Source: Vigna angularis
Taxonomy: Eukaryota; Streptophyta; Magnoliopsida; Fabales; Fabaceae
Direction: 5' to 3'
Length of the DNA stretch: 64,000 nt
Assembly: GCF_016808095.1 (NCBI RefSeq)
Contig: NC_068970.1
Location: forward strand, 46,721,630 to 46,785,629
Shown: positions 10,221 through 62,497 of the stretch, in pieces
How positions within the stretch are numbered: position 1 is the stretch's first letter
Layout of the letters: the number at the start of each line of letters is the position of its first letter
Notes under the pieces: generated by a model
What the model was told of the DNA's origin: nothing
Databases searched by the model: none
What the model saw: the letters and a program-made list of their open reading frames with translations, nothing else
Translations under genes and position numbers: made by a program

Positions 10221-10335
10221 TAACATCTACTGATGGATGCTAGGTGGTTAAGTAGCTACTGAAGGATACTAGGTTTGTTACACCTACTGATGGGTATTGG
10301 TAAGAAAGATTTACACCTACTAATGGGTGTTGGTG
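10221..10335 (+). repeat. Tandem hairpin array, 4 units
   Basis: Four units with loops TACTGATG, TACTGAAG, TACTGATG and TACTAATG flanked by short inverted stems. Several stems carry a mismatch in this old copy. Unit spacing is not a multiple of three, so it is not a coding repeat. Confidence 0.75.
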
Positions 10336-11210: not shown

Positions 11211-11735
11211 AGGAGTTGAGATAGCATTTACTGATGGATGTTATCAGCACTAGAGTAGGATCTTTTCTATCCAGTGTTTTAAATTTGTGAACTTATTTAC
11301 TTTTGTTTTTAGAATAGGATTGATGTACTCAATTTGAAACTTTCTCTGTTATGATGGTTTTCTTGTGACTATTGTGTGATAAGTAATGCTTGATGATGCT
11401 TTGATATTGATTGATGTTGAGATTGTGCATAGTATATGCTTATACAGGTGGTTCACAAGCTTTGTGAACAAATGCAAGATGTTGTGATTGTGATTATGAT
11501 TCTAAGCAGGATGTTATATGTGGAATGTGAATGAGCTTATATGTGAGGTTTTGAGCTCCAGAGTTGTTGTGATTGAATGTTATTACTTTGAAAGCATGAA
11601 TGACTTTGCCTAGGTTTGCTATGATTGAATCATTTGCTTGTTTGCATCATATGATCAAGGCCATTTATTAGAAACCCTTTTTGTTAGCCAAATGCATGAA
11701 TTTAGCCCAATTAAAGAGAACACAATGTGTTCTAT
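11211..11735 (+). other. 3' untranslated region of the middle element, left part
   Basis: Homologous to the start of 17174-18442. It breaks at 11735 after TCTAT, the target duplication of the inserted element, and resumes at 19761. Confidence 0.8.
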
Positions 11736-13053
11736 TGATAACAGTTGAAAAACTGTTATTTTCATGCTTAAAATTGATATTAAAAGCAACCTTTAGACTT
11801 AGAAACTAGCTTGAAATCAATGCTTTTATCTATATTTTCAGAAATAAGAGAGCTGGACAGGTTTATGCTTGATTTGAGTGTTTTTGTGCAGGTTTTGAGG
11901 TGAATTTAGTGAAAAGAGTGAAGAAGGAGAGAAGTGACATTAGAAAAGACAAGAAAGAGTGCAAAAAGAGAAGACGAAGGCACCGCTCAGCGGTATTTAC
12001 CGCTGAGCGGCACTCAAGAAGTCACGTTGGAACCGCTGAGGGGCAAAATGGCCGCTGAGGGGAAGAAAGAAGACGCGCAACCACCGCTGAGCGGTATTTA
12101 CCGTTGAGCGGCACTTTTTGGACTTGGGCTTTTGTAATCTTTTGTAACTCTAAATTAGTATATAAGGGCTTGCACGTCCTAGGGTTTAGTATCTTTGGCA
12201 GAACGAAGGCAAACACTCTCTCTTCCACCCCTTTGAAGGAGGATCTTGGATGCTCAGGCTACCTCTTCACCTTTTCAGGGTTTATTCTTTCATACTTTCA
12301 TTGTAATTCATCTAGGTTCACCATGAATATGGTGAACTAAACCTTGTATGTTTGTTGGGGAATCAATGTAATCTCTTGAAGCTCTCATATATGGAATTTA
12401 TGCTTGCATCTTAATCTAAGACTTATGCTTTCTTTCATCATTAGTTAGGGTTTTTCCTCTTTGCTTAATGCTTGCATTGTTTAACTCATTCTATTGCATG
12501 ATTATTGGTTTTGTCGATACGGACACGTACGGGGAAGTCTAGATCCGGGGAATTTCTCCCAATATTATACTGACAATATTATATTGGTTGTCGTTAAGCT
12601 CCTGCACTCATGAACTAATCATTAGGAATGCTAGGAATTGTATGAACTATTTGATTAGGGAGAAGCCATCTAGAATGGTACATTAGAGAGTGGCATTAAC
12701 AATGATGATTTGAATGTTGAATTCCTAAAATGTATGAGAGTGGATGAGATGAAATTGACCCCCAACAACATATTCATTCATATATTCCATTGAAAGTGTT
12801 TATCTTTTGTCTTTGCCATTGATCAAAATTCATGCATACATGTTTAGTTTTCGTCTTGCATAATATAATCCAATTATTTCGTTTGTAAGTCTTAGCTAAT
12901 CAACAAACCACACAACTAAACTAGGCCGTGAGTCCTTTGGGAAGAACGATACTTGGTCTTACCAAGTTTATTACTTGAACGATTCGGTCATACTTGCCGA
13001 TTGTGAAACAAGTTTGTGACATCATATTTTGGTGCTTACAAATTTGTCCATCA
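11736..13053 (+). repeat. 5' LTR of the youngest element
   Basis: Begins with the hairpin TAACAGTT-GAAA-AACTGTTA and ends TTTGTCCATCA. Palindrome array 11982-12112. TATA box TATATAAG at 12159-12166, preceded by CTTGGGCTT and followed by CCTAGGGTTTAG and ATCTTTGGCAGAACGAAG, the probable transcript start region. U5 contains a decayed primer-site copy. Confidence 0.9.
12159..12166 (+). promoter_or_regulatory. LTR TATA box
   Basis: TATATAAG about 50 bp downstream of the last GC palindrome and about 35 bp upstream of the conserved ATCTTTGGCAGAACG leader. The same box occurs at the equivalent place in the other LTRs, for example 43602-43609. Confidence 0.7.
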
Positions 13054-13492: not shown

Positions 13493-14841
13493 GATGCAAT
13501 TCGGTCAAGAATTTAACTATATGGGCACTCAATTCTTCCAAGGTCAACAAAGGAAAGCAAGAGATCTCATCTTTCAGGCAAGGCATGGAGGAATCATTAG
13601 GTCATGCATGGGACAGATATAAAAGCCTATTAAGAAAGATTCCCACGCATGGATTTGACGAAGTGGAAGTAGTCCTAATCTTCCTTGAAGGTCTTGGTTC
13701 ACAAACCAAGATGATACTTGACGCCTCAGCAGGAGGAAATATCAAATGGAAAACTTCAGAGGAAGCCGCAGAAATAATTGAAAACATGGCTACTAATGAT
13801 AATGAGCTACACAGTGAGAGAGGAGCTCCTATGCAAAAAAAAGGAGTTCTGCAGATGCAATCCAATGATGCCTTGCTAGCTCAGAACAAGATACTAACTC
13901 AACAATTGGAGAATCTCACAAAGATACTTGCACAACTACCCAAAGAGTTGAAGACTGCTACACAGGTACAATCCCAGTTGTGCGAATTATGTGGAGGCGA
14001 CCATATCAATGGTCAATGTGCCTTTTCAGTAGAAGCAATGGAGGATGTAAAATACATGACCAATCAACACCGTCAAGGGAACTACAATCAAGAGTGGAAA
14101 CCACACCCAAGCATTGGTCAAGGGCAAACTGGGCAAGCTGGTCAATTTAATAAGCAGCAGCAGCAACCAACCTTATGGCAACAAATTTCTATACTTAATG
14201 AAAGATCAATAAGGTTGGAAGAAATTCTTCAGCAATTTATACAGAAAACTGAATCTTCTCAAAAGAGCACTGAAGCTGCTATTAAGAACTTGAAGATTCA
14301 AATGGGGCAGATTACCAAGCAGTTGGAAGAAAGGCCTGACACGGATTTTGGGGCTAATACTGAGGTTAACCCCAGGGGAGAGTGTCAAGAGCTAGTGAGT
14401 GTAAATGTTGAAAAAGTTGAGTTGGAAAAAGAAGAGAGAAAAGAGAGAGAAGAGAAAGAAGAAGAGAAAATTTGTGTGAAGATTGAGAAGGTGAGTAGAA
14501 AAAGAAAAGAAAAAAAGAAAGTGAGAGAAAAGAGAAAGAGGACGAGAGAAAAAAATAAAGAATCATATGAAAAATCTCGTCCCCATCCAAAGAAGTATCA
14601 TAGGAAGAAGGAATTTGAGTGCTTTATGGAAATCTTCAAGAAATTGGAGATTAAAGTTCCTATGATTGAGACACTGCAACAAGTTCCTGGTTTGATCAAA
14701 TTTCTGAAGAAGTTCAGTAGAAAGAAGAAAAAGAAGAAGGAACTTGAGCTTTACTGGGTCAAGCTAATGACGTTAAAAGAGCGCTTGCTGGGAGGCAACC
14801 CAGTGATTTACAAACTTTTGACTTTTGATTTGGTTTTGTAA
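13483..14841 (+). CDS. Gag-like ORF with zinc knuckle, no pol
   Basis: About 450 residues. The N-terminal half of the capsid-type domain is missing; homology starts at VNKGKQEISSFRQGMEE. A long helical region follows, then a zinc knuckle CELCGGDHINGQC (CX2CX3HX4C) and the Gln-rich RQGNYNQEWKPHPS segment. The ORF ends with a coiled coil, a strongly basic/acidic stretch and FMEIFKKLEIKVPM. Its last codons lie in the structured motif. The start is uncertain: the frame is open from before the acceptor-like TTTGCAG, while the first ATG after the acceptor is in another frame and soon stops. Protease, RT and integrase are absent. RNA binding through the knuckle is expected from the family. Confidence 0.7.
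   Translation: MFAGCNSVKNLTIWALNSSKVNKGKQEISSFRQGMEESLGHAWDRYKSLLRKIPTHGFDEVEVVLIFLEGLGSQTKMILDASAGGNIKWKTSEEAAEIIENMATNDNELHSERGAPMQKKGVLQMQSNDALLAQNKILTQQLENLTKILAQLPKELKTATQVQSQLCELCGGDHINGQCAFSVEAMEDVKYMTNQHRQGNYNQEWKPHPSIGQGQTGQAGQFNKQQQQPTLWQQISILNERSIRLEEILQQFIQKTESSQKSTEAAIKNLKIQMGQITKQLEERPDTDFGANTEVNPRGECQELVSVNVEKVELEKEERKEREEKEEEKICVKIEKVSRKRKEKKKVREKRKRTREKNKESYEKSRPHPKKYHRKKEFECFMEIFKKLEIKVPMIETLQQVPGLIKFLKKFSRKKKKKKELELYWVKLMTLKERLLGGNPVIYKLLTFDLVL
14755..14812 (+). other. Structured motif, upstream copy
   Basis: GGGTCAAGCTAATGACG, AGCGCTTGCTGGGAGGCAAC, CCAGTGATTTA. The stem CTGGG/CCCAG is perfect around AGGCAA. It overlaps the end of the gag-like ORF. Confidence 0.78.
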
Positions 14842-14884
14842 TTTTTAATTTGTGGATATTATTTTGTGAATATTTTGTTGGATC

Positions 14885-15030
14885 CAGCATCTACTGAAGG
14901 ATGCTAGGTGGTTAAGTATCTACTGAAGGATACTAAGTTTGTAACACCTACTGATGGGTGTTGGTGAGAAGATTTCGCACCTACTGATGGGTGCTGGTAA
15001 GTTTGAAACACCTACTGATGGGTGTTGGTG
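14885..15030 (+). repeat. Tandem hairpin array, 5 perfect units
   Basis: Five units in order, stem left / loop / stem right: AGCATC/TACTGAAG/GATGCT, AGTATC/TACTGAAG/GATACT, AACACC/TACTGATG/GGTGTT, GCACC/TACTGATG/GGTGC, AACACC/TACTGATG/GGTGTT. Every stem is perfectly complementary although the stem sequences differ. Start-to-start spacing is 29, 28, 34 and 30 nt, so the reading frame is not kept. Confidence 0.9.
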
Positions 15031-15036
15031 GATTTT

Positions 15037-15092
15037 GGGTCAGGCTCGTGACGTTAAACAAGCGCTACCTGGGAGGCAACCCAGTTGATTGA
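15037..15092 (+). other. Structured motif, downstream copy
   Basis: GGGTCAGGCTCGTGACG, AGCGCTACCTGGGAGGCAAC, CCAGTTGATT. It closes the hairpin array and precedes the promoter-like region. Confidence 0.78.
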
Positions 15093-15225
15093 TTGTTTTT
15101 GTTTGTTGATTTTTAGTTAGGATTTGCATAAGCATTTTTAACATTGAATGCAGGGAACCTATGAGGGGCATGTAGGGAAGGCACGCAGGTCATGAAAAGA
15201 AGGAGAGGAGCACTTCACGAAAGTG

Positions 15226-15529
15226 CCGTTGAGCGGCAATTACCGCTGAGCGGTACTATCGCAGATGGGCTTAATTTCCCCTCAGCGGGACCCGAGCCCA
15301 TTAGGGTATTTTTATACCCCAAGCTGCGTTTTAAGGTTTATGTTCTGGCTTCTCTCTGCACAAACACTTCCACACACATTCTCTTAGGTTTTCCACATCT
15401 TTTCACTCTTCCCTCTTTAGAAAATCTCTCTTTCACTCACTTTTTCACTAGTGTGCCATCAAAGTTTGGGGTTGGAAGAGAGCATTCTAGTTTGGAAGCA
15501 TTCTCATATCATCTAGCATCTCCACCCAA
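15226..15529 (+). promoter_or_regulatory. Promoter-like region and leader of the third ORF
   Basis: Palindromes CCGTTGAGCGG and CCGCTGAGCGG and a CCCCTCAGCGG half-type copy, then GAGCCCATTAG (TGGGCT on minus, a site II-like element), then the inverted repeat GGGTATTTTTATACCC. A C/T-rich stretch follows (15350-15455, many CTCTTT and CACTC) like plant 5' leaders. Conserved at 10553, 41691 and, in part, before 34873. Confidence 0.55.
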
Positions 15530-15938
15530 GTAAGTAAAATGCATTTTGTTCATTCTAGGGTTCTTGAATTTGAATGTAATTGTCAAAACATGAATATTTA
15601 GGGATTTTGATTTCTATGCATGATTTGATGATATACTTGATATTTGAACCGATTAAACTGCTTGATCATGAACTGGAAAACTGAAAATTGCATTTGGGTG
15701 GAGTTAGGACAGTTTAAAAATGAGATTTGCAAAAATCTGCAGGTCACCGCTGAGCGGCATTTACCGCTGAGCGGCACTCTGCCAGATTTGGTCTTTTCTG
15801 GTTTTGCGTGTGGTACTGGTGGCGCTGAGGGGAAATTCTGGCCCTCAGCGGTGGTTTAGCTTCGAAAGGAGTTGTGTTCTGAGTTTTACTAATGATTAAC
15901 ATCATGTTCTGTGGTTTTGGTTTGTGTTTTGAATGCAG
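15530..15938 (+). other. Predicted leader intron of the third ORF
   Basis: A perfect donor (CAA followed by GTAAGT) near 15530 and an acceptor TTTTGAATGCAG just before the ATG define an intron of about 410 nt. The same donor and acceptor occur at 34894 and 35313 in another copy. The intron holds a second set of palindromes (about 15746-15858). Predicted from sequence only. Confidence 0.6.
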
Positions 15939-15940
15939 GA

Positions 15941-17173
15941 ATGGCATCCTCTTCTGGAAAGAGATTGAAAACCATGGCAACCAAGAGAAAGGAAAAGGAA
16001 CCAGAGCAGCCCCATAATGGCAGGTTCCTCTCTAGGAAACATGAGAAGCACTTTAGGGTGGTTCAGGACAGGAGACTTCTGATGGAGAGAAAGGTTGGAA
16101 TGATACCTAACTTTGCTCCTCAATTTGGAGAGCAAGTGTTAGGGAATGATTGGGGAAAGCTAGCCACTTATCCAGCACCTGCCAACATAGCTGTGGTCAA
16201 GGAATTCTACACCAATGCAAAGAAGATTGGTGGTCATCCAGCTGAGAATTATTTGGGCTATGTCAGAGGCCATGCTATCAGGTTTGATCCTGATTCTATC
16301 AACAATTTCCTGGATACTGTCTGGGCTGGTGAGCAATGTCAGTTTGCTCTTAGTATGGAGGAAGGTGCTGACTTTGAGGATGTTGAGAGAGTACTGTGTA
16401 TACCTGGAGGACACTTCCAGAGGAATAGATCTGGCGCAGTGGTTAACATTAGGAGGACAGATTTGACTCCTCTTGCAAAGTATTGGATGGCATTTTCTCA
16501 TGCCAATATTCAGCCATGTTCACATGTGTCAGATATTACTCTCAGCAGGGCATTATTCATCTACTGTGCTATCAGAAACTTGAATGTTAATATTGGGAAG
16601 GTGATAGCTGATGAGATTAGTGTGTGTGCTAACACCTCCAACAACAAAGCACCACTAGGACATCCGTCTTTGATTACTCACCTTTGCAAGCAAGCTGGGG
16701 TGGACACTTCTGTTCCACCATTTGAGAGGCCAAGAAAAGCTATTGATGAGGCTTATTATAGACAGTACTGTGGAGGTGAGGATGCAGCTCAGCCAGTTCC
16801 ACCATGCCAGGTTCGTAGAGAGAGAGGGCCAGCACAGAGCCGGACATCTGCTGATGCACATGAAGCCGAACCATTCCAGATGAGAGACATGTATATGTCT
16901 CTTATAGGTGCTCAGTTGCAGTCCATTCACAGAGGGCAGGTGGCCACTGCTGAGATGATAGTGGGGATGTATGATAATCCTCCAGCCCACAGGTGGACTA
17001 TGGATGAATTCCATAATGTTGTAGCATGGCCAGAAGAACCATTACATGGAGGAGCTGGAGCAGCTGAAGCTTCAGCTAGAGATATGGAAGAAGATGAAGC
17101 TGAGGAGGAGGATGCATTTGATGAAGATGATGATGAAGAGGAAGAGGAAGATACAGAGGACAGCTCCGACTGA
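15941..17173 (+). CDS. Third ORF: plant transposon-protein domain, Athila 3' ORF
   Basis: About 410 residues, intact. The start MASSSGK is chosen because it follows the predicted splice acceptor by two bases; an upstream in-frame extension would be intronic. The N-terminus is strongly basic (KRLKTMATKRKEKE, nuclear-signal-like). The centre (residues about 30-270) matches what I recognise as the putative plant transposon protein family found in Athila elements (VVKEFYTNAKKIG, YVRGHAIRFDPDSINNFL, CIPGGHFQRN, LAKYWMAFSHANIQP). The last 30 residues are almost all Asp/Glu. There is no signal peptide and no hydrophobic membrane segment. It sits where retroviruses have env, but nothing in the sequence makes it an envelope protein. 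Function unknown. Confidence 0.8.
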   Translation: MASSSGKRLKTMATKRKEKEPEQPHNGRFLSRKHEKHFRVVQDRRLLMERKVGMIPNFAPQFGEQVLGNDWGKLATYPAPANIAVVKEFYTNAKKIGGHPAENYLGYVRGHAIRFDPDSINNFLDTVWAGEQCQFALSMEEGADFEDVERVLCIPGGHFQRNRSGAVVNIRRTDLTPLAKYWMAFSHANIQPCSHVSDITLSRALFIYCAIRNLNVNIGKVIADEISVCANTSNNKAPLGHPSLITHLCKQAGVDTSVPPFERPRKAIDEAYYRQYCGGEDAAQPVPPCQVRRERGPAQSRTSADAHEAEPFQMRDMYMSLIGAQLQSIHRGQVATAEMIVGMYDNPPAHRWTMDEFHNVVAWPEEPLHGGAGAAEASARDMEEDEAEEEDAFDEDDDEEEEEDTEDSSD

Positions 17174-18442
17174 TGAGGAGCTGAGATAGCATTTACTGAT
17201 GAATGCTATCATATGATTATGCTTTTGTGGTTTAAGTTTTCTGAACTTATTTGTTTTTGTTTTTAGATTAGGGTTTGATGTACTCTATTGAACACCTGGT
17301 TTGTGTGATGGTTTGCTATTAACTGTGATTGTGTGATAAGTAATGCTTGATGATGCTTGATTGAGGTTGAGATGATGTGCACACAAAATGCTTATACAGG
17401 TGATTCACAAGCTTTGTGAACAAATGCATGAAATTATGATTGTGGTTGTGAGATTAAGCAGGATGTGTATGTCAAATGTGAATGAGCTTATATGTGAGGT
17501 TTTGAGCTCCAGAGTTTTTGGTATGATTGAATGTTATTACTTTGAAAGCATGAATGATTTTGCCCAGGTTTTCTATGATTGAATCAATTGCTTGTTTTGC
17601 ATCATATGATCAAGGCCGTGTTGTTGAAACCCTTTTTATTGGCCAAATTCATAAAGATAGCCCACTAAAAGAGAACATGTTGTGTTCTATCCTTTGAACC
17701 TTTAGCCTTGAACATACACTGAAAACCCTTGATTGAAAAATCTTTACCTTGAGTTAAGTAGAAGATCTTGTGTGGTACTGATAAATGTTCAAGTTTGGGG
17801 TTGTTGGGAAAATATGAAAAGCATTGAGCTAAGAGCTAAAAAGTAAGAATATGCAAAGAAAAAGAAAAGAAAAGAAAAAGAAGTAAAGCTCAATGCAAAA
17901 GCAAAGGCAAAAGAAAGTTGGGAATGAATAAGAAAAATTGTGTTGTGATGATTCTCTTAACTCAAGGATTTTGTGATCCAGAAAAAACCAATTTTCTTGT
18001 TAGCCCAGCCACATTATAAGCTAGTGAAAAGTCCTTTTGATGATGCATGCTTGTGATTGTTTTGATTGTGGTAAAATGAAAGGCAAAGTTGATTCATGTG
18101 ACATTGTGATAGTGGAGTGAATGAGTGAAATACTTTACCTCTTATACACTTGTGTGATGAGTGAAACACTTTATCTAGTGAGGAAATATTCCATAAGCAC
18201 ATGAACATCCATGCTTAGTTGATTGATCATTCATGAAAAATAGCATTTGTTGGAAATTAAATGACTTTGTGAACACTAAAGCATGTGCACATCTTGATTG
18301 AACTCTTGGTCATAAGTTTGAGTGAAGTTGTTACTTATCTTGAGAAAAGGATTTTGAATGAGTGAACCATCATATGAATTGGTTGGAGATGGAGTTACAT
18401 TTTGTTTGCTTGAGGACAAGCAAAGTTCTAAGTTTGGGGTTG
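17174..18442 (+). other. 3' untranslated region with purine tracts
   Basis: Non-coding. It contains AAGTTTGGGGTTG twice, at about 17787 and immediately before the LTR (18430-18442, the likely polypurine tract), and a 35-nt A/G-rich tract at about 17855-17890. The region is conserved in all copies at about 1.2 kb, far longer than needed for priming alone. Confidence 0.7.
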
Positions 18443-19760
18443 TGATAACAGTTGAAAAACTGTTATTTTCATGCTTAAAATTGATATTAAAAGCAACCTT
18501 TAGACTTAGAAACTAGCTTGAAATCAATGCTTTTATCTATATTTTCAGAAATAAGAGAGCTGGACAGGTTTATGCTTGATTTGAGTGTTTTTGTGCAGGT
18601 TTTGAGGTGAATTTAGTGAAAAGAGTGAAGAAGGAGAGAAGTGACATTAGAAAAGACAAGAAAGAGTGCAAAAAGAGAAGACGAAGGCACCGCTCAGCGG
18701 TATTTACCGCTGAGCGGCACTCAAGAAGTCACGTTGGAACCGCTGAGGGGCAAAATGGCCGCTGAGGGGAAGAAAGAAGACGCGCAACCACCGCTGAGCG
18801 GTATTTACCGTTGAGCGGCACTTTTTGGACTTGGGCTTTTGTAATCTTTTGTAACTCTAAATTAGTATATAAGGGCTTGCACGTCCTAGGGTTTAGTATC
18901 TTTGGCAGAACGAAGGCAAACACTCTCTCTTCCACCCCTTTGAAGGAGGATCTTGGATGCTCAGGCTACCTCTTCACCTTTTCAGGGTTTATTCTTTCAT
19001 ACTTTCATTGTAATTCATCTAGGTTCACCATGAATATGGTGAACTAAACCTTGTATGTTTGTTGGGGAATCAATGTAATCTCTTGAAGCTCTCATATATG
19101 GAATTTATGCTTGCATCTTAATCTAAGACTTATGCTTTCTTTCATCATTAGTTAGGGTTTTTCCTCTTTGCTTAATGCTTGCATTGTTTAACTCATTCTA
19201 TTGCATGATTATTGGTTTTGTCGATACGGACACGTACGGGGAAGTCTAGATCCGGGGAATTTCTCCCAATATTATACTGACAATATTATATTGGTTGTCG
19301 TTAAGCTCCTGCACTCATGAACTAATCATTAGGAATGCTAGGAATTGTATGAACTATTTGATTAGGGAGAAGCCATCTAGAATGGTACATTAGAGAGTGG
19401 CATTAACAATGATGATTTGAATGTTGAATTCCTAAAATGTATGAGAGTGGATGAGATGAAATTGACCCCCAACAACATATTCATTCATATATTCCATTGA
19501 AAGTGTTTATCTTTTGTCTTTGCCATTGATCAAAATTCATGCATACATGTTTAGTTTTCGTCTTGCATAATATAATCCAATTATTTCGTTTGTAAGTCTT
19601 AGCTAATCAACAAACCACACAACTAAACTAGGCCGTGAGTCCTTTGGGAAGAACGATACTTGGTCTTACCAAGTTTATTACTTGAACGATTCGGTCATAC
19701 TTGCCGATTGTGAAACAAGTTTGTGACATCATATTTTGGTGCTTACAAATTTGTCCATCA
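18443..19760 (+). repeat. 3' LTR of the youngest element
   Basis: 1318 bp, the same length as and visually identical to 11736-13053. It is followed by the target duplication TCTAT. Confidence 0.92.
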
Positions 19761-20752: not shown

Positions 20753-21155
20753 CCAAGATTCAAGAACAAGTTGTGGGTTGTGAAAGACTATAAAGAGAAT
20801 GGAGTGATAGAAATTGAAGCTCCATATTCAAGGAGAGTAAAAAAGGTGGACCGGAAGCAGTTGATGAGTTGGTGTAATGAAAGAAAAAGGAACACCAACA
20901 ATGAAGATGGAACTTGAGCTTATTGGGTCAAGCTAATGACGTTAAAAGAGCGCTTACTAGGAGGCATCCCAGTGATTTGAGAACATTAATTTCTTTGATT
21001 TTGGTTATGTAATTTTATAAACTTTGGGACATTGATTTATGTTGTTTGAGATTTCATTGTATAGCATCTACTGATGGATGCTAGGTGGTTGAGTATCTAT
21101 TGAAGGATACTAGGTCTGTTTACACCTACTAATGGGTGTTGGTAAGAAAGATTTG
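20753..21155 (+). pseudogene. End of the outer element's gag-protease ORF, structured motif and 3-unit hairpin array
   Basis: 20753-20917 encodes the C-terminal NKLWVVKDYKENGVIEIE segment homologous to the end of the ORF at 39341-41209. The structured motif follows at about 20926-20979 (one stem base changed, ACTAGGAGG). Three hairpins lie at 21061-21142: AGCATC/TACTGATG/GATGCT, AGTATC/TATTGAAG/GATACT and ACACC/TACTAATG/GGTGT. The second structured motif is lost at the break near 21155. Confidence 0.75.
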
Positions 21156-34893: not shown

Positions 34894-35313
34894 GTAAGTA
34901 AAAAGCATTTTGTTCATTCTAGGGTTCTTGAATTTGAATGTGATTGTCAAAGCATGAATATTTAGGGGTTTTGATTTCTATGCATGATTTGATGATATAT
35001 TTGATGTTTGAACCGATTAAACTGCATGATTATGAACTGGAAAACTGAAAATTGCATTTGGGTGGAGATAGGACAGCTTTAAAACAAGATTTTCAAAAAT
35101 CTGCAGAGTTACCGCTGAGGGGTAAACTGCCGCTGAGCGGCACTCTGCCAGATTTGGTTTTTCTGGTTTTTTGTGATTTGGACCATGGCATTGGTGGCGC
35201 TGAGGGGAAATTCTGGCCTTCAGCGGTGGTTTAGCTTCGAAAGGAGTTGTGTTCTGTGTTTTACTAATGATTAACATCATGTTCTGTGGTTTTGTATTTG
35301 TGTTTGAATGTAG
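34894..35313 (+). other. Predicted leader intron, second copy
   Basis: Donor CAA/GTAAGT at 34894 and acceptor TTTGAATGTAG ending at 35313. Same positions relative to the ATG as the intron before 15941. It contains the second palindrome set (about 35113-35230). Confidence 0.6.
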
Positions 35314-35315
35314 GA

Positions 35316-36265
35316 ATGGCATCCTCTTCAGGAAAGAGATTGAAAACCATGGCAACCAAGAGAAAGGAAAAGGAACCAGAGCAACCCCAATCTAGCAGGT
35401 TCCTCTCTAGGAAACATGAGAAGCACTTTAGGGTGGTTCAGGACAGGAGACTTCTGATGGAAAGAAAGGTTGGAATGATACCTAACTTTGCTCCTCAATT
35501 TGGAGAGCAAGTGTTAGGGAATGACTGGGGAAAGCTAGCCACCTATCCTGCACCTGCCAACATAGCTATGGTAAAGGAATTTTACACCAATGCAAAGAAG
35601 ATTGGTGATTATCCAGCTGAGAATTATTTGGGCTATGTCAGAGGCCATGCTATCAGGTATGATCCTGATTCTATCAATAACTTCCTGGACACTGTGTGGG
35701 CTGGTGAGCAGTGCCAGTTTGCTCTTTGTATGGAGGAAGGTGCTGATTTTGAGGATGTAGAGAGAGTACTGTGTATACCTGGAGGACACTTCCAAAGGAA
35801 TAGATCTGGCTCAGTGGTTAACATTAGGAGGACTGATCTGAATCCTCTTGCAAAGTATTGGATGGCATTTTCTCATGCCAACATTCAGCCATGTTCACAT
35901 GTGTCAGATATTACTCTCAGCAGGGCACTCTTCATCTACTGTGCTATCAGGAACTTAAATGTGAATATTGGGCAGGTGATAGCTGATGAGATTAGTGTGT
36001 GTGCCAACACCTCAAACAACAAAGCACCACTAGGACATCCCTCCTTGATCACTCACCTTTGCAAGATAGCTGGGGTGGACACTTCTGTTCCACCATTTGA
36101 GAGGCCAAGAAAAGCTATTGATGAGGCTTATTACAGACAGTATTGTGGAGGTGAGGAAGCAGCTCAGCCAGTTCCACCACGCCGTGCTCGTAGAGAGAGA
36201 GGGCCAGCACAGAGCCAGACATCTGCTGAGACACATGAAGCAGAACCATTCCAGATGAGGGACAT
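35316..36265 (+). pseudogene. Third ORF, left half, cut by LTR insertion
   Basis: Encodes residues 1 to about 316 of the protein at 15941-17173, close to identical and without stops, ending at FQMRD. The break is exactly at GACAT (36261-36265), after which an LTR begins. The missing acidic C-terminal part of a matching copy is on the opposite strand at 52845-53135, next to the same GACAT. Confidence 0.88.
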
Positions 36266-37502
36266 TGATAACAGTTGAAAAACTGTTATTTTCATGATTA
36301 AAATTGACACTAAAAGCAACCTTTACACTTAGAAACTAGCTTGAAATCATGCTTTTCTTCATATTTTTAGAAATAAGAGAGCTAGACAGGTTTATGCTTG
36401 ATTTTAGTGTTTTTGTGCAGGTTTTAAGGTGAATTTGGTGAAAGAAGTGAAGAAGGAGAGAGATGAAATCAGAAAAGACAATAGAAAGTGCAAAAAGAGA
36501 AGTCGAAGTCACCGCTCAGCGGCAGTTTACCGCTGAGCGGCACTCAGAAGCTTGCGGGAGGTCCGCTGAGGGGCAAAATGGCACTTTAATGGGTTTGGAC
36601 TTGACTTTTTGTAATTTACGAATGATATATATACTTTAGGGTTTCCTAGGGTTAGGTATCTTTGGCAGAAACGAGGCAAACACTCTCTCTTCCACCCCTT
36701 TGAAGGAGGATCTTGGATGCTCAGGCTACCTCTTCACCTTTTTAGGGTTTATTCTTTCATTCTTTCATTGTAATTCATCTAGGTTCACCATGAATATGGT
36801 GAACTAAACCTTGTATGTTTGTTGGGGAATCAATGTAATCTTTTGAAGCTCTCATATATGGAATCTGTTTTTACATCTTTTATTTAAGATCTATGCTTTC
36901 TTTCATCATTAGTTAGGGTTTTTCCTCTTTGCTTAATGCTTGCATTGTTTAACTCATTCGATGCATGATTATTGGTTTTGTCGATACGGGCGCGTACGGG
37001 GAAGTCTAGATCCGGGGAATTTCTCCCAATATTTTATTGGTTGTCGTTAAGCTCCTGCACTTATGAACTGATCATTAGGAATGCTAGGAATTGTATGAAC
37101 TCGTGATTGGGGAGAAGCCTTCTAGAAAGGTACTTTAGAGAGTGGCATTAACAATGATGATTTGAATGTGAATTCCTAAAATATATGAGAGTGGATAAGA
37201 TGAAATTGAACCCCAACAACATATTCATCAATATATTTCATTGAAAGTGTGTGTCTTTTATTTTAGCCATTGATCAAATTCATGCATACATGTTTATTTT
37301 CGTTTTTGCATATAAAACCTCAAATATTTCGTCCTAAGTCTTAGCTAATCAAGAAATCACATAACTAAACTAGGTCGTGAGTCCTTTGGGAAGAACGATA
37401 CTTGGTCTTACCAAGTTTATTACTTGAACGATTCGGTCATACTTGCCGATTGAAAAACAAGTTTGTGACATCATATTTTGGTGTTCATAAATTTGTCCAT
37501 CA
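36266..37502 (+). repeat. Athila-type LTR in the third ORF
   Basis: 1237 bp. Shorter than its sister at 53136-54434 because one palindrome pair and its spacer are deleted (GGC joined to CACTTTAATGGG near 36580). It shares private sequence with that sister (AATGATATATATACTTTAGGG). The left flank is the third ORF with GACAT. The right flank is not a primer site but the middle of a gag gene (CTTATTC), so the two ends belong to different insertions. Confidence 0.85.
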
Positions 37503-41217: not shown

Positions 41218-41550
41218 GGGTCAAGCTAATGACGTTAAAAAAGCGCTTACTGGGAGGCAACCCAGTGATTTAAAAACTTTTGAGTTTGTTTTGTAACTTT
41301 TAATTTGTGGACATTATTTTTGTAAATACTTTGTTGGATATAGCATCTACTGAAGGATGCTGAGTCTGTAACACCTACTGATGGGTGTTGGTGAGAAAAT
41401 TTTGCACCTACTGATGGGTGTTGGTAAGTTTGTAACACCTACTGATGGGTGTTGGTAAGATTGTAACACCTACTAATGGGTGTTGGTGGATTTTGGGTCA
41501 GGCTCGTGACGTTAAACAAGCGCTACCTGGGAGGCAACCCAGTTGATTGA
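41218..41550 (+). repeat. Structured motif, 5-unit hairpin array, structured motif
   Basis: Upstream motif 41218-41273, array 41341-41487, downstream motif about 41495-41550. Units: AGCATC/TACTGAAG/GATGCT; AACACC/TACTGATG/GGTGTT; GCACC/TACTGATG/GGTGT (one G.U pair); AACACC/TACTGATG/GGTGTT; AACACC/TACTAATG/GGTGTT. Confidence 0.88.
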
Positions 41551-44505: not shown

Positions 44506-44712
44506 CTCGTGGTTTAACTGGTTAATTTGTGTGATTATTGATTATCTTTGAGTTTAATTTTGAATTTCTGTTTTTATTTTTCTGTTTTTATTTTTTCTGT
44601 TTTTATTTTATTTTATTTTCTGTTTTTTTTTTATTCTCTGAATCTTATATCTTGTCCTATATCTTTTTGTGCTAACCAAATATTCTAGGGTTTTGTTCTC
44701 TTGTGTATGCAG
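44506..44712 (+). other. Leader with CTAAC and TATGCAG acceptor
   Basis: T-rich tract, CTAAC at 44672-44676 and ATGCAG ending at 44712, 37 nt from the branch-point A to the acceptor, as in the other copies. No donor was identified. Confidence 0.55.
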
Positions 44713-47700
44713 GAGGCAATTCGAACAAGGAGCAAAGTAACTGCAGAACCTCTTCTTAAAGGTTTAGACGAGAGTAGACGGAGGAGAAGAATCCGAACAT
44801 CTAGAGAACTTTTCCCTCCTCCGGAAACTCTGTTTCAACCATCACCACAAGGTTCTGACCATAGCACAGAAAATATGGAGAACAATAATATCAGAAGAAC
44901 TCTTGCTGATTACACCAATACAGCTGGGCCTCAGCACTTTAACAGTATAGCTAGACCGAGAGTCAATGCAGCTAACATGGAGGTCAAACCAGCATTGATC
45001 CAATTGGTAAAGAGCAATCAGTTTAATGGGTTATCTCATGAAAGCCCATATGAGCACCTCACTACATTTAATGAGATCTGCAACACAGTGAAAATCAATG
45101 GGGTGCCAGATGAAGCGATCAAACTTAGCTTGTTTCCTTTCTCATTAGGAGGCAATGCTAAGCTTTGGTTAAATTCTTTTCCAGAAGGAAGCTTCACAGA
45201 GTGGGAAGCAGTGGTAACCAAGTTTCTAAATAAATACTTCCCACAATCAAAGGTGAATAAAGGCAAGCAAGAGATTTCTTCATTCAGGCAGGGCATGGAA
45301 GAATCACTGGGTCATGCATGGGATAGATACAAAAGCTTGCTACGAAAAACACCCACGCATGGATTCGATGAAGTGGAAGTAGTCCTTACATTCCTTGAAG
45401 GTCTTGGTTCACAAACCAAGATGATGCTTGATGCCTCAGCAGGAGGAAACATTAAATGGAAAACTCCAGAGGAAGCAACTGAAATTATTGAAAATATGGC
45501 TAGTAGTGATAATGAGCTCAACAGTGAAAGAGGAGCTCCTTTGCAACAGAAGGGAGTTCTACATTTACAAACACATGATGCGTTGCTAGCACAACATAAA
45601 ATTATCTCTCAACAGTTGGAAGAAGTAATTATGAAGCTTTCCCAAATACCACAAGAAATACAACAGGTCTCAATGGTTCAAGGGCAACAGCAAAAATGGC
45701 AAATGCAATCTACTCCATCTGAGAAGACAACAAAACTTGACGAGACTTTCCAAAGATTCTTGAAGACGAATGCATCTTATTGTCAGAATGTGGATGCTGC
45801 ATTTAAAAAAATGGAGATCTATGTTGAGAGAATAATTGACAAGATGAAACATGATAATCTCAGAAAGGAGTGTAAAACTGTTGTGACCAGAAGTGGTAAA
45901 GTGTTAGAGGAGAGAAAAAAAGAAAGAGAGGAGAAAGAAAATGAGAGTGAGGGTGAAAAAGAAACATGTGAGTGGAAAGAAAGAGTTGAGAGAGAGAAAA
46001 AGAAAAAAGAAGAAGATGAGAGGAGAGAAAAAAAAGAGAGAGAAGAGAGAGAGGAAAGACAAAAAGAAAAAGAGGGTGAAAAGCCACTTCCTTATCCAAA
46101 GAATTATTCAAGGAAGGAGAAAGAAAAGCAGTTGGAAGGATTCATGGAGTTATTTAAGAAGCTGGAGATCACCATACCATTCTCTGAAGCATTGCAACAG
46201 ATGCCAGCATATGCAAAGTTTTTGAAGGAACTTCTTACAAAGAAAAACAAGTACATTGAAAAGGAAACTATCAATGTACAGGGTAACTGCAGTGCAATCA
46301 TACAGAAACTACCTCCTAAACTTAAAGATCCAGGAAGTTTCACTATTCCATGCACCATAGGAGATTTGAAAGTTGGAAGAGCATTGATTGATTTGGGAGC
46401 TAGCATTAATTTGATGCCGCTATCCATGTGCAGAACAATTCAGGGTTTGGAAATCAAACCAACCAGAAGGACTCTTCAACTGGCGGAAAGGTCTCTTAAA
46501 TATCCATATGGAGTGGTTGAAGATGTTCTAGTAAAGGTTGATAAATTTGTATTCCCAGTGGATTTTATTGTGATGGAGATGGAAGGAAATAGTGATGTTC
46601 CTCTTATTCTTGGGAGACCTTTTATGAAGACTGCTAGAGTTTTAATTGATGTAGAGAATGGTAAGCTTAAATTGAGAGTTGATGATGAAGAGGTCACTTT
46701 TGACGTGTCCAAGGCCATGACATATCCAAATGATGACAACGCATGTTTTCAATTTGATGAACTTGATAAAGTTTGTATGGTGCAAGAAAGGATGGTGCGA
46801 AATATTTCTCCATTAGAGAAAACTCTCATTGATGCTTGTGAAGATTTAGATGAAGAAGAGGAGAAATTAATTGATGAATGTCTGATGGACTTGGAAACAT
46901 TGAAAGAGAGTCCAGTGGAAGATTCAATCTTTGAAATAATTGATAAGGAAGAAGAAGTCAAAGCGAAGAGGCCAGAATTAAAAAGATTGCCATCACATCT
47001 GAAATATGTTTTTCTAGAAGAAGATGGAACAAAGCCAGTCATCATCAATAACTCTTTATCTCTACAAGAAGAAGAGCAGTTGATAAAAATTTTGAAGGCC
47101 AATAAAGAAGCCATTGGGTGGTCAATATCAGATCTTAAAGGTATTAGCCCAACTTATTGCATGCACAAGATTTTTATGGAAGAAGATTATAAACCAAGTG
47201 CTCAACCACAGAGAAGGTTAAATCCTGTTATGAAGGAGGTGGTCAGAAAAGAAGTGTTGAAACTGCTAGAAGCTGGTATCATCTATCCAATCTCTGATAG
47301 TGAATGGGTGAGTCCAGTACAGGTGGTTCCAAAGAAAGGTGGGATGACAGTAATTCATAATGATAAAAATGAACTTATTCCTACTCGTACAGTTACTGGC
47401 TGGCGTATGTGCATTGATTACAGGAAGCTGAATAAAGCTACTAGAAAGGATCATTTTCCTCTTCCCTTCATGGACCAGATGTTAGAAAGATTATCAGGTC
47501 AAGCTTTCTATTGTTTTCTAGATGGATATTCTGGATACAATCAAATTGTGGTAGATCCAAAAGACCAAGAGAAGACGGCTTTTACTTGTCCCTTTGGTAT
47601 CTTTGCATATAGAAAGATGCCATTTGGATTATGTAATGCTCCAGCTACATTTCAAAGGTGTATGCAGGCAATTTTTGCAGATCTCTTAGAAAAATGTATT

Positions 47701-48537
47701 GAAGTGTTCATGGATGATTTCTCAGTTTTTGGGAACTCTTTCCAAAGATGTCTGGCTAATTTGAACACGGTTCTTAAAAGATGTGTTCAGACAAATCTTG
47801 TTCTTAATTGGGAGAAATGCCATTTCATGGTAACTGAAGGAATTGTGCTGGGGCATAAAATCTCTGCTAAAGGAATTGAGGTAGATAAAGCTAAAGTAGA
47901 GGTCATTGAGAAACTGCCTCCACCCACAAATGTAAGAGGGATTAGGAGTTTTCTCGGTCATGCTGGGTTTTATAGAAGATTCATCAAAGATTTCTCAAAA
48001 ATTGCTAAACCATTGAGTAATCTTTTGATGAAGGATGCTCCTTTTGTGATGGATGAAGACTGTTTAAAAGCTTTTGACACATTGAAGAATAAATTAGTGT
48101 CAGCCCCAGTAATTGTAACGCCAGATTGGAATCAAAATTTTGAATTAATGTGTGATGCAAGCAATTATGCAATAGGGGTTGTTCTTGGCCAGCGAAAAGA
48201 ACAAAAGTTTCATCCAATTTATTATGCTAGCAAAGTTCTGAATGATGCTCAACTGAATTATGCTACCACAGAAAAAGAATTCCTGGCTATTGTGTATGCT
48301 TTAGAGAAATTTCGATCTTATCTTATTGGATCTAAGGTGATTGTCTATACAGACCATGCAGCTATCAAATATTTGTTGACAAAGCCAGATTCTAAGCCAC
48401 GTCTGATTAGATGGGTACTACTGTTGCAAGAATTTGATGTAGAAATCCGTGATAAGAAAGGAAGTGAGAACTTGATTGCTGATTATTTGTCACGGTTAGT
48501 CAACAATGAGGTCACTAGCAAGGAATTCGAAATCTGA
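44701..48537 (+). pseudogene. Athila gag-protease-RT-RNase H polyprotein
   Basis: One open frame of 1278 residues. Order: basic N-terminus (RSRRRRRIRTSR near residue 25), capsid-type Gag (GGNAKLWLNSFPEGSFTEWE near 150), helical and Lys/Glu-rich coiled coil (about 290-480), aspartic protease (ALIDLGASINLMPLSM near 560, ILGRPFMKTARVLIDV), RT (MCIDYRKLNKATRKDHFPLP near 905, the FMDD box near 1003, LGHKISAKGIEVD), and RNase H (DASNYAIGVVLGQ near 1150, YTDHAAIKYL). No zinc knuckle is present. The start is uncertain: candidate Mets are near 44707 and 44875, and a leader intron may supply the first exon. The frame ends in TGA, and integrase continues in the same frame after a second stop, so the polyprotein is broken. 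Confidence 0.9.
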
Positions 48538-49833
48538 GAGTCTTTTTCAGATGAAACACTAATGTATATTCAGTAGAGGCCCTGGTTTGCTGATATGGCT
48601 AATTTCAAAGCTGCAAAGGTCATGCCAGAAGACTTAACTTGGCAACAAAGAAAATTTTTTTTGCATGATGCTAAGCAGTTTGTTTGGGATGATCCTTATT
48701 TGTTCAAGATTGGAGCAGATAATCTTCTGAGGAGATGTGTGACAAATGAAGAAGCAGAAGGAATTCTCTGGCATTGTCATGATTCACCTTATGGAGGACA
48801 TTTTAATGGAGAAAGAACAGCAGCAAAAGTCCTTCAATCAGGGTTGTATTGGCCAACTTTATTTAAAGATGCCCATAATCATGCCAGAAATTGTGATAAA
48901 TGTCAAAGAGCAGGGACGATCACTAAACGTCATGAGATGCCATTACAAGGCATTTTAGAGGTTGAGGTTTTTGATTGCTGGGGTATTGACTTTGTTGGAC
49001 CTTTTCCTCCATCTTTCAACAATGAATATATTTTGGTAGCAGTGGATTATGTGAGTAAATGGGTGGAAGCACTAGCTTGTCCTAAAAATGATGCTAGCAC
49101 GGTAATTAAATTTTTGAAGAGGCAGATATTCTCACGTTTTGGCACTCCAAGAGTGTTGATTAGTGATGAAGGATCTCATTTTTGCAATTATCAGCTAGAA
49201 AAAGTACTCAAACACTATGGAGTGAAACATAAGGTAGCTGCACCTTATCATCCACAAACCAATGGACAGGCTGAGGTATCTAACAGGGAAATAAAAAGGA
49301 TCCTGGAAAAAACAGTGACTTCATCAAGAAAGGATTGGTCACTCAAATTGGATGATGCTCTTTGGGCTTACAGGACGGCAATGGAGACGTCCATGGGATT
49401 ATCACCGTTTCAATTAGTCTATGGGAAAGCATGTCGTTTGCCAGTAGAATTGGAGCATAGAGCGTTATGGGCTTTGAAATTTTTGAATTTTGATCCTCAT
49501 GAAACTCAATGCACACGCAGAAGGCAGATTTTGGAGCTTGAAGAAATGATCAAATTTTATCATGACAGGAAGTTGGTGAATAGAGTTTTCAATCCAGGAC
49601 AACAGGTATTATTGTTCAATTCAAGATTGAAGATATTTCCTGGGAAGCTGAAGTCAAAATGGTCAGGACCATATGTGGTAAAAGAAGTGCATCCGCATGG
49701 AGCAATTGAAATATTTAATCCAGCTGCTGATGATCCACAGAAAAGTTGGGTGGTGAATGGTCAACGTCTCAAGCCCTATCTAGGGGGAGAAGTGCAACAA
49801 TTGTCCACAATTATGCTGTTGGTTGATCCTTGA
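48538..49833 (+). pseudogene. Athila integrase
   Basis: In the same frame as the upstream ORF, behind TGA (48535) and TAG (about 48577). The open part from 48595 has 412 residues. Zinc domain: His62, His69, Cys100, Cys103 (CHDSPYGGH, NCDKCQ). Catalytic core: Asp132 (GIDFVG), Asp191 (ISDEGS), Glu227 (GQAEVSN), with exactly 35 residues between the last two. The C-terminal part has KWSGPYVVKEVHPHGAIEIF and ends RLKPYLGGEVQQ...LVDP. No chromodomain, as expected for Athila. A short deletion after LELEEM compared with 2586-3047 removes about a dozen residues. Confidence 0.9.
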
Positions 49834-49839
49834 GAGTTT

Positions 49840-50152
49840 GGGTCAGGCCCGTGACGTTAAACAAGCGCTTACTGGGAGGCAACCCAGTGATTTAAGAACT
49901 TTTTAATTTTTGTTTTGGTTATGTAATTTTGAACTTTTGGGTATTTTTGTTTTTGTTATAAGTTTGTTACAGGATTTACATCTACTAATGGATGTTAGAC
50001 GGAAGAGTATCTACTAAAGGATACTATGTTTGTATACACCTACTGATGGGTGTTGGTAAGGAAAATTTGCACCTACTGAAGGGTGCTGGAGGATTTTGGG
50101 TCAGGCTCGTGACGTTAAACAAGCGCTACCTGGGAGGCAACCCAGTTGATTA
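49840..50152 (+). repeat. Structured motif, 4-unit hairpin array, structured motif
   Basis: Motif 49840-49894, array 49977-50089, motif 50098-50152. Units: ACATC/TACTAATG/GATGT; AGTATC/TACTAAAG/GATACT; ACACC/TACTGATG/GGTGT; GCACC/TACTGAAG/GGTGC. All four stems are fully complementary. Confidence 0.9.
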
Positions 50153-57600: not shown

Positions 57601-58301
57601 AGCTGGGTTGCCTCCCAGTAAGCGCTCTTCTTTAACGTCACTAGCTTGACACCATCTTCATCATCATAGCATCCATCAGTAGATGCTCTCAGTAACATCC
57701 ATCAATAGATGCTGTTAGTAACATCCATCAATAGATGTCTAATCACATAGCATCCATCAGTAGATGCTAATATTTCTTATCTTCATTAGTATCCCTCAGT
57801 AGACACCAATCTTTCTCATCTTCATCGACATCCATCAGTAGATGCCTAATTACCTAACATCCATCAGTAGATGTCTAGTCACCGTCCTCTTCCATAACAG
57901 CATCCATCAGTAGATGTTGTCATTCATCATCCTTATCATAGCAACATCCATTAGTAGATGTTGTAGAAGCATCCATCAGTAGATGTTATCATTACTGCCG
58001 TTAGAAGCAGCATTTAACCTAAAAAAACTCAAACACACAAAGAAAAAAAATCAAATCAAAACCACACAATTAAATCAAATAAAAAGAAAATGGGCTATCA
58101 TTCATCGCAACAGCATCCATCAGTAGATGTTGTTATTTGAATCCTCTTAGCATCCCTCACTAGATGTTGTCCAGCATCCATCAACAGATGTTGTCATTAC
58201 TGCAAAACAAAATCAAATCCACACCACACAACTTAAAAAAAATCAGAAACTGGGTTGTCTCCCGACAAGCGCTTCTTTAACGTCACTAGCTTGACCCACT
58301 A
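57601..58301 (-). repeat. Structured motif, 13-unit hairpin array, structured motif
   Basis: Motifs at 57601-57653 and 58249-58301. Ten hairpins at 57667-57990 and three at 58108-58195. On minus most loops are TACTGATG or TATTGATG. Stems include AGCATC/GATGCT, ACATC/GATGT and CAACATC/GATGTTG (7 bp). One unit has GTGTC/GATAC, with one G.U. The array is larger than in younger copies. Confidence 0.85.
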
Positions 58302-60859: not shown

Positions 60860-62497
60860 TTAAATTTCTTCGTCCAACAGCGTGGGAATACTTTGTTCGT
60901 TTCTGAAAAAGTTGTAAGGATCAACCCTGGTCTTCACGGTAGCCAATCTCCTGAAATTGTTACCGAAATACTTGAGACCCCAAATACTTGCTTGATCGTA
61001 GCTTGTATAACCATTGTTATTAACCCCAATGTCAAGGTCTCTGTAATTCACATATGCAGCTCTTGGGGAGTTTGAAACATAAGGTTCCATATATTTATAC
61101 AGTTTTCTAATCCAAATCATGTGCCTTTGTGCAGCCTCGTCCCCTGCAGTTTGCCAAATGGTCACGTAGTGCATATGAAATATGTATCCAGATCTGTGTG
61201 CGAATGGAAGTTCAGATTCAGAAATCTCATACATTCTGCCTCCATAAGGAGCAAATTGAACCTGGGAATATTCAATCTCATCGTCATAAAGAAAGCGCCA
61301 TAATCCTCGTAATCCATCAACAGAAATAGGTTGCCTTACATAATCAGATTTTGCTTTGAAATAACCTGAATAAATTTGAGTTCTGTTCAGCAAAACCTCT
61401 GGGGCTTCGAGGGTTGTAGTTACAATCCACGGAGAATTCAAGAAGACAACTGAGCCAATCCAACTAGTCTCAGTACAGTCTTTTCTGTCCAAACCCAACT
61501 CCGGTAAACTCTTTTGCATCAGTGGAACAAGTTCTTCTACACCTCCTAGAAACGTGGAGACAAAATTGACTTGTATTGTCTTCTTTCCATATTCACGTGA
61601 GGGTACCTTTGTCATGTCCACCCTAATGTATATACGGTCGTCCAATTTACTCGCCACAACCTGCCACTTTTGAAAGATCTCGGTTGCATTCTCTTCCAAT
61701 GTTCTTTCAACGTTGAATACTGTCACAGTTGATGGAACTGGAACTAGTTTTATCTTCCAAGCCACGATGACTCCAAAGCTTGCTCCACCACCTCCTCTAA
61801 TTGCCCAAAACAAATCCTCACCCATGGCATGTCTGTCAAGTAGATTACCATTCACATCTACTATTTGAGCATCTACGATATTATCTGCGGCAAGACCGTA
61901 CTTACGCATCAAGAATCCATAGCCACCTCCACTGATGTGGCCACCAGTGCCCACACTATAGCACACACCAGCTGGAAACCCAAGTGTTTTGCTTTTCTCG
62001 TAAATCCTGTAGTAGAGTTCTCCCAGGTGTGCTCCAGTTTGAACCCACGCAGTTTGATTTTCTGCGTCAACTGTGACTTCTCGAAGGTTTATGAGGTCAA
62101 TGATGACAAAGGGAACCTCGGCAACGTACGAGAGACCCTCGTAATCATGACCTCCACTTCGGGTTCGAATTTGCAGGCCATGACGTTGGGAGCACATTAT
62201 GGTGGCCTGAATATGAGAAACGTTCACTGGCGTAACAATGACTTGAGGTTTTGAGACTATGTTTAAGAACCTAAGATTTTGAATGGTAACATTTAGGACA
62301 GAGGAGTACGAAGAGTTTGTTTGGGTGTAAAGAACATTGGAGATTGAGTTGGTGATATGGGGATAGTTGTAAAAACATTGAACAAACTTTTCAGGAGTAT
62401 CAAGTGAAGGAGGTTCAAATGAAAATAAAAGAGCAATGGCAGTAACGAAGGTGAAAGAGGAGCTCAGATGCTTCATTTCTGTGGATGTTGCTGACAT
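60860..62497 (-). CDS. Berberine bridge enzyme-like FAD-linked oxidase
   Basis: 545 residues, intact, no intron. Family members are secreted or vacuolar flavoenzymes that oxidise substrates such as alkaloids, monolignols or oligosaccharides using bicovalent FAD and O2. The two FAD-linking residues are visible: His117 in SGGHDYEG and Cys179 in GVCYSVGTGGH. They are 62 residues apart, exactly as His104 and Cys166 in poppy berberine bridge enzyme. Cys41 and Cys102 may form the conserved disulphide. A hydrophobic signal-type segment follows Met8 (MKHLSSSFTFVTAIALLFSF), so Met8 may be the real start, seven codons downstream. The C-terminal BBE domain is complete (YDQASIWGLKYFGNNFRRL, VDPYNFFRNEQSIP). 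The physiological substrate cannot be read from the sequence. Confidence 0.93.
   Translation of the reverse strand: MSATSTEMKHLSSSFTFVTAIALLFSFEPPSLDTPEKFVQCFYNYPHITNSISNVLYTQTNSSYSSVLNVTIQNLRFLNIVSKPQVIVTPVNVSHIQATIMCSQRHGLQIRTRSGGHDYEGLSYVAEVPFVIIDLINLREVTVDAENQTAWVQTGAHLGELYYRIYEKSKTLGFPAGVCYSVGTGGHISGGGYGFLMRKYGLAADNIVDAQIVDVNGNLLDRHAMGEDLFWAIRGGGGASFGVIVAWKIKLVPVPSTVTVFNVERTLEENATEIFQKWQVVASKLDDRIYIRVDMTKVPSREYGKKTIQVNFVSTFLGGVEELVPLMQKSLPELGLDRKDCTETSWIGSVVFLNSPWIVTTTLEAPEVLLNRTQIYSGYFKAKSDYVRQPISVDGLRGLWRFLYDDEIEYSQVQFAPYGGRMYEISESELPFAHRSGYIFHMHYVTIWQTAGDEAAQRHMIWIRKLYKYMEPYVSNSPRAAYVNYRDLDIGVNNNGYTSYDQASIWGLKYFGNNFRRLATVKTRVDPYNFFRNEQSIPTLLDEEI

Follow-up and report, generated by a model that had tools for sequence, protein, structure and literature searches.

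What maintains a row of short tandem hairpins between pol and the third open reading frame (ORF3) of a plant retroelement, and what might such a row do? The question is raised by a 64,000-nt stretch of Vigna angularis DNA (the window), in which a first-pass annotation had noticed hairpins with a constant loop and changing stems, and had read them as the product of selection on RNA structure. To our knowledge, the RNA signals that act in cis in plant Ty3/gypsy elements, whether for export, packaging or splicing control, are little known.

Layout of the elements and their hairpin arrays

The window, part of an assembly of 448 Mb and 33 contigs, contains Ty3/gypsy elements of a Vigna-like legume that are nested in one another. 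The youngest element, E2, whose LTRs are 100% identical to each other, has apparently lost the greater part of pol, and we therefore took the gag-pol layout from element E5 (44701-49833), where the integrase follows RT-RNaseH, which is the domain order of Ty3/gypsy and not of Ty1/copia elements. A third ORF after pol, as in Athila-type elements, was also present, with PF20167 in the ORFs 15911-17173 and 35286-36278. This layout, on which the label rests, suggests that these are Athila-type Ty3/gypsy elements, the env function being putative. Similarly, passages of PMC1142308 describe a Ty3/gypsy gag-pol and, in most members, an env-like third ORF for the Athila/Calypso/Diaspora lineage. The best matches of the ORF3 protein were Vigna angularis proteins (92-93% identity over ca. 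90% of its length), and the best 120 of its 365 relatives were Vigna angularis hypothetical proteins, mostly also named putative plant transposon protein.

In E2, the end of pol is followed by motif M1, a T-rich stretch, the hairpin array and motif M2, and then by a candidate TATA box, a putative leader intron, ORF3 and one further hairpin. The features of E2, and the ORFs of E5, are as follows (a slash in a donor or acceptor marks the splice site):

11736..13053, plus strand: 5′ LTR of E2, 100% identical to its 3′ LTR
14755..14803, plus strand: motif M1 (TGGGTCA.GCT..TGACGTTAAA..AGCGCT..CTGGGAGGCAACCCAG), upstream flank of the E2 array
14886..15026, plus strand: array E2, five units (14886-14905, 14915-14934, 14943-14962, 14976-14995 and 15007-15026) with 8-nt loops TACTGAAG or TACTGATG
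15036..15084, plus strand: motif M2, downstream flank of the E2 array
15243..15253, plus strand: GC palindrome CCGCTGAGCGG, shortly upstream of the candidate TATA box; the same box occurs in LTR-like segments and in the putative ORF3 intron
15304..15319, plus strand: candidate internal TATA box GGGTATTTTTATACCC of a putative promoter, identical in E1, E2 and E4
15530..15938, plus strand: putative ORF3-leader intron, with donor CCAA/GTAAGT, branch-point-like TACTAATG at 15887 and acceptor GAATGCAG/GA
15941..17173, plus strand: ORF3 of E2, PF20167 “putative plant transposon protein”, in env-like position
17185..17210, plus strand: dispersed hairpin 3′ of the ORF3 stop, with a 9-bp stem (GATAGCATT/AATGCTATC) and loop TACTGATG
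18443..19760, plus strand: 3′ LTR of E2, pairing with the 5′ LTR
44701-48537: E5 ORF with gag, protease, RT and RNaseH
48595-49833: E5 ORF with integrase

We infer the start of ORF3 transcription and the splicing of its leader from such signals in the sequence; the donor CCAA/GTAAGT was found at six places. Because E2 keeps the putative intron and its LTRs are identical, the RNA from which it was reverse-transcribed was probably unspliced. The window also contains an uninterrupted ORF of 545 aa (60860-62497, minus strand), which, by its motifs, may be a berberine-bridge-type oxidoreductase.

Besides that of E2, five arrays were found:

10222..10331, plus strand: array E1, 4 units
21063..21140, plus strand: array E3, 3 units; the element is cut off directly after it and M2 is missing
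41342..41484, plus strand: array E4, 5 units
49977..50087, plus strand: array E5, 4 units
57668..58192, minus strand: array E6, 13 units, of a divergent subfamily

A rule-based census gave 35 units in the six arrays and, after removal of a degenerate site at 58006 (three core mismatches), 34 (4, 5, 3, 5, 4 and 13 per array), which is the total of the first-pass annotation; all five stem types that it had named were found among them. Shuffling predicts 0.05 occurrences of the core AYMTACTRAWGRDT in the window, where 27 are present. Hairpins with 8-nt loops and 5-bp Watson-Crick stems were collected from the window; of their 12 commonest loops, only three sat on more than one stem sequence, namely TACTGATG, TACTGAAG and TACTAATG (given as their complements). 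In the 34 units, loop position 3 is C in 29, T in 4 and G in 1, position 5 is G in 28 and A in 6, and positions 4 and 6 are always T and A, respectively; the loop described earlier as constant was indeed near-invariant, as TACTRAWG, in units sampled from the genome. The start-to-start spacing in E2 is 29, 28, 33 and 31 nt, correcting the earlier 29, 28, 34 and 30, and the exclusion of a coding repeat on account of spacing held: the spacings are not multiples of three, with 202 of them leaving remainders of 0, 1 and 2 in 47, 58 and 97 cases. Known Rfam families were also rejected: the whole window gave 0 matches at the gathering score, and the minus strand of 14700-15110 gave one sub-threshold match, to snoZ185, which scored 17.9 bits where 50 is the gathering score. 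Loop-loop or long-range pairing was rejected, there being no reverse complement of the loop on the E2 sense strand.

Motif M and the spread of the arrays

The arrays sit between two copies of a motif, M, that is more conserved than the arrays themselves. Both copies are present, some slightly altered, at five of the six arrays, E3 being cut before M2, and in four elements (E1, E2, E4 and E5) the 64-nt block containing M2 is 99.2% identical, against 53% in the next 46 nt. M is an extremely conserved motif of ca. 50 nt (GTCA.GCT..TGAC...AGCGCT..TGGGAGGCAACCCA), situated in the window at 2546, 10375, 14789, 15070, 23843, 41251, 41528, 49873, 50131, 57617 and 58284. At least 2,222 exact copies exist in the assembly, with 0 for the reversed control. 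M forms a hairpin of its own, whose loop reads AGGCAA at 129 of the 130 sites, with an outer pair that is C-G in 109, T.G in 8, T-A in 5, C.A in 4 and other in 4.

The sample consisted of 60 stretches, selected among the first 100 listed places of M and all on contig 1, together with a 2.5-kb stretch at about 0.96 Mb and 24 stretches of 10 kb, taken blind, that adjoin the window. The TACTRAWG array was found in none of the 14 stretches chosen for other variants of M (L028-L041, 1.1-1.3 kb after M), so its function is not general to M-bearing elements; it was present in 42 of 46 other M stretches (L042-L087), and absent from L057, L058, L059 and L066. Locus L040 has M three times in a row. A CCCC-TACTGATG-GGGG hairpin lies ca. 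0.8-1.0 kb after the variant M in five of the 14 loci (L028, L031, L034, L037 and L039), inside a cluster of GC palindromes, and may be there by chance.

M also occurs in contig LFMX01000071.1 (L001), filed under Candidatus Burkholderia humilis, in plant-like retroelement DNA with GC palindromes and a TATA-containing hairpin, and with no TACTRAWG array. The contig is mixed, because its other end has bacterial-looking ORFs (by eye), and its retroelement part would come from the host plant, presumably a Psychotria. Since M occurs without arrays at other loci and in this plant-like contaminant, the array would be a lineage-specific addition; M looks old, and the array a local acquisition. Viral contigs gave 0 matches to two M patterns and 0 in an integrase search, and the sole match to a looser M pattern (L002) was discarded as GC-rich DNA without retroelement features, phage-like by eye.

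Pairing around a constant loop

Among the 24 distinct units of the window, pairing held in 91.7% of the cells of the six stem pairs; shuffles gave 82.8%. Cells changed on both sides numbered 23 (8.3 in shuffles) and the covariation score was 0.439 (0.257 shuffled), with 0 of 500 shuffles reaching either observed value, and none of the slid registers came near the true one. The number of pairs with two-sided change (4) was reached by 39 of 500 shuffles, and is thus unexceptional alone; that of further pair types (7) was reached by 499 of 500 and was not above shuffles.

Under a looser rule, the genome sample gave 261 units (32 from the window), corresponding to 64 distinct 20-mers in 59 runs; these counts include the two rows of L037, a run that is a GC palindrome and no array, and a few other doubtful rows. 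Of 1305 cells in the inner five pairs, 1236 (94.7%) were Watson-Crick, 36 G.U, 16 A.C and 17 other, and 202 of the 261 units had five perfect pairs; by our count, joining the five perfect stem types requires at least four double changes. When the 190 column pairs of 61 distinct 20-mers were ranked by background-corrected mutual information, stem pairs took ranks 1, 2, 6, 8 and 11, and the sixth, nearly invariant, rank 91. Ranks 3 to 5 went to the non-stem pairs (12,18), (1,12) and (1,16), so shared ancestry contributes to the signal too. The first-pass annotation had tied its reading to covariation in a larger alignment with shared ancestry modelled; the excess was kept in the larger alignment, in which ancestry was handled only by this comparison of all column pairs.

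Conservation follows the same design. For 257 units, the majority base of a column had a mean share of 0.94 at loop, 0.76 at stem and 0.49 at spacer positions; the 13 units of E6 alone gave 0.92, 0.90 and 0.50, respectively. Likewise, in the alignment of E1, E2, E4 and E5, identity was 86% for loops and stems, and 73% and 63% for two spacers.

The loop is also associated with stems outside the arrays. The window contains 12 further exact TACTRAWG sites, five of them on Watson-Crick stems of at least 4 bp, against 0 of 185 one-off loops (Fisher, 3e-7 with sites that are partly homologous, and 1e-4 when the three stem loci are counted once). The five comprise two copies of one coding-region hairpin, two of the hairpin after ORF3, and one site at 63579, near which no M motif was found; among the other exact loops, that at 11229 is on a stem with wobble pairs and three lie at the putative branch point of the ORF3 intron. 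The seven matched copies of the hairpin after ORF3 include three perfect ones, one with T.G at the closing pair, and one each with G.U, A.C and another mismatch; an eighth, at 11229, has T.G and G.U. Its closing pair is found as T-A instead of C-G, with T.G intermediates, pointing to a compensatory change. The coding-region hairpin has the same loop on a GGTTAA/TTAACC stem (9579 and 23316 in the window, 1825 in L003, 1705 in L007 and 5090 in L019), and in a second group the stem is GGGGCTAA/TTAACCCC, with a single mismatch. We give little weight to this hairpin because the sequence reads as a repeated Val-Asn codon pair, and it may be a by-product of repeated codons.

Overall, selection of the hairpins for pairing around a fixed loop is well supported by these comparisons. 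Covariation in the window and genome units, column conservation and the hairpin after ORF3 thus uphold the base-pairing part of the earlier claim of selection on RNA structure; the part referring to sense RNA was not borne out by wobble counts, which gave no significant strand preference in window or sampled genome units. The imperfect pairs, earlier described as often G.U in the sense strand, were 4 G.U and 7 A.C in the inner five pairs of the 34 units. Sampled genome units had 36 versus 16 cells in all, 18 versus 13 in distinct units (p 0.47) and, by our own count of kinds, 9 versus 4 (p 0.27). Folding of the linker was not better than shuffles for the sense RNA (z -1.35), and was better for the antisense strand (z -6.47); in context, units were predicted to pair more in sense in two of the six arrays, equally in one and less in three.

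The lack of a significant strand preference in the wobble counts would also be expected if the arrays had arisen with no selection, by tandem duplication and by template-switch correction of imperfect palindromes during reverse transcription. The number of units per array is variable, mostly 3 to 7, with 14 rows in E6 under the looser rule; units of ca. 31-33 nt are near-identical in some arrays, and 59 of the 261 units lack five perfect pairs, all of which suits such an origin. However, it leaves unexplained that the loop is the best-kept part of the unit, far above the spacers, that one-off loops in the window never sit on stems, and that E6 and the other arrays share a design though upstream of M1 their DNA shows no more than 73-78% identity. 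We thus regard a neutral origin as rather unlikely.

Position of the array and possible roles

Because neither wobble counts nor folding favours the sense strand, the level at which the array acts has to be deduced from its position. It is situated upstream of the candidate ORF3 promoter and of the putative leader intron, and would therefore be absent from ORF3 mRNA; for this reason, we infer that it acts as RNA, rather than DNA, within the full-length transcript. The hairpins are not all confined to full-length RNA, since that found after ORF3 would be in ORF3 mRNA also.

We propose that selection maintains, in the pol-ORF3 linker of these Athila-type Ty3/gypsy elements, a series of short hairpins specific to their lineage. 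Each unit presents the 8-nt loop TACTRAWG on a stem that can change in sequence provided that pairing holds. The repeated loops could form a multivalent site for a loop-reading protein, either Gag or a host RNA-binding protein, whose binding would mark unspliced full-length RNA for export or packaging, by analogy with the dispersed stem-loop packaging signals of some viruses. The chances of such multivalent sites marking full-length RNA seem to us a little short of even, the packaging, export or splicing step being deduced throughout; a role in export or packaging, as the first-pass annotation had proposed, is possible. Dispersed packaging signals, such as the HBV stem-loops with an RGAG loop described in PMC7612645 and PMC8677749, likewise consist of several stem-loops with a common loop motif, and a shared motif on variable stems is what we find here. 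The present hairpins differ in that they mostly form one tandem array in one place, and in that binding by a coat protein or Gag is hypothetical. The covarying hairpin family, of which one genome holds many copies, and its recurrent M flank offer a handle on how full-length transcripts could be distinguished from those of ORF3.

The branch points of plant introns follow the rule YURA, and loop positions 3-6 fit it. This raises the alternative that the array is a splice decoy, with branch-point-like loops and spacers resembling the 5′ splice site G/GTRAG. An acceptor search that did not require the loop sequence gave 11 rows, of which two were removed as unrelated; within 75 nt upstream, all nine remaining acceptors have ACTAATG and seven have the loop 8-mer TACTAATG, ca. 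50 nt before the ORF3 acceptor. Additionally, G/GTRAG followed by T, A or G occurs eight times in sense and 0 times in antisense in 626 nt of E1-E5, while its frequency in the window is 0.43 per kb of strand. These spacer matches are, however, homologous copies and not independent, and E6, with 13 units, has no G/GTRAG spacer at all. Furthermore, the loops TACTGAAG (91 of 261 units) violate the branch-point rule at position 7, and one of the nine acceptors, from the array-less locus L041, has GAACTAATG, and therefore the resemblance of the loop may reflect merely a good branch point. We consider a splice-decoy array unlikely, and slightly more so its fuller version, in which hairpin-displayed loops would mimic the branch point of the element, alternate with 5′-splice-site-like spacers and restrain splicing of the full-length RNA. 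Were it true, this plant retroelement would possess a negative splicing regulator of novel design. The NRS is described in PMC9143442 as a decoy 5′ splice site; there too, a retroelement with a gene downstream has splice-signal-like sequences in its full-length RNA. The NRS lies in gag, and is not described there as a hairpin array.

The hairpins might instead be a source or target of small RNAs, as proposed for siRNA854 of Athila6. Dicer substrates are far longer than 20-nt hairpins, and the units, of 20 nt and with stems of 5-7 bp, fall far below that length, making this role very improbable. In its favour, Athila6 gives 21-22-nt siRNAs, and fold-back hairpins are one model for their start in parts of PMC3276544.

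A further alternative, modelled on the RM repeats of Sireviruses, is that the dyads act as DNA and provide several binding sites through which the downstream ORF3 promoter is partly driven. The array is ca. 270 bp 5′ of the conserved candidate TATA box, the wobble counts show no significant preference of strand, and RM repeats are similarly placed, before ENV in 77 of 79 linker copies according to passages of PMC2829016. In Sireviruses, as in the plant LTR retrotransposons studied here, many palindromic units lie in the linker directly before the env-like gene. However, RM repeats belong to Ty1/copia elements, have fixed CGG-CCG arms and a variable centre, occur also in LTRs and were read as DNA boxes, whereas the present array belongs to elements with the Ty3/gypsy domain order, its TACTRAWG units lack conserved CGG-CCG arms, its centre is fixed while its arms covary, and the LTR-like segments in the window showed no such array. 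This renders a role as DNA rather improbable.

The words “hairpin” and “stem-loop” occur 0 times in PMC1142308, whose passages mention no array of hairpins in the interval from pol to ORF3. Neither the array nor the motif was described in the literature surveyed, at the level of listings and the starts of abstracts and with a minority of the subscription papers; a text match to the letters GGGAGGCAACCC came from unrelated bacterial work only.

The same linkers contain separate GC palindromes, CCGCTGAGCGG and CCGCTCAGCGG, a presence that would fit a DNA role in the linker. The window has 40 exact copies (at 12000, 12084, 15243, 15747, 15764, 18707, 18791 and 33 more positions), with 34 in LTR-like segments and six in pol-ORF3 linkers or putative ORF3 introns. 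PMC2829016 reports that, of the Ty1/copia elements it compares, Sireviruses alone have palindromic boxes of this kind in linker and LTR. The CCGCTGAGCGG boxes are RM-like and lie in a Ty3/gypsy element, so that the Sirevirus-type palindromic boxes have a look-alike there.
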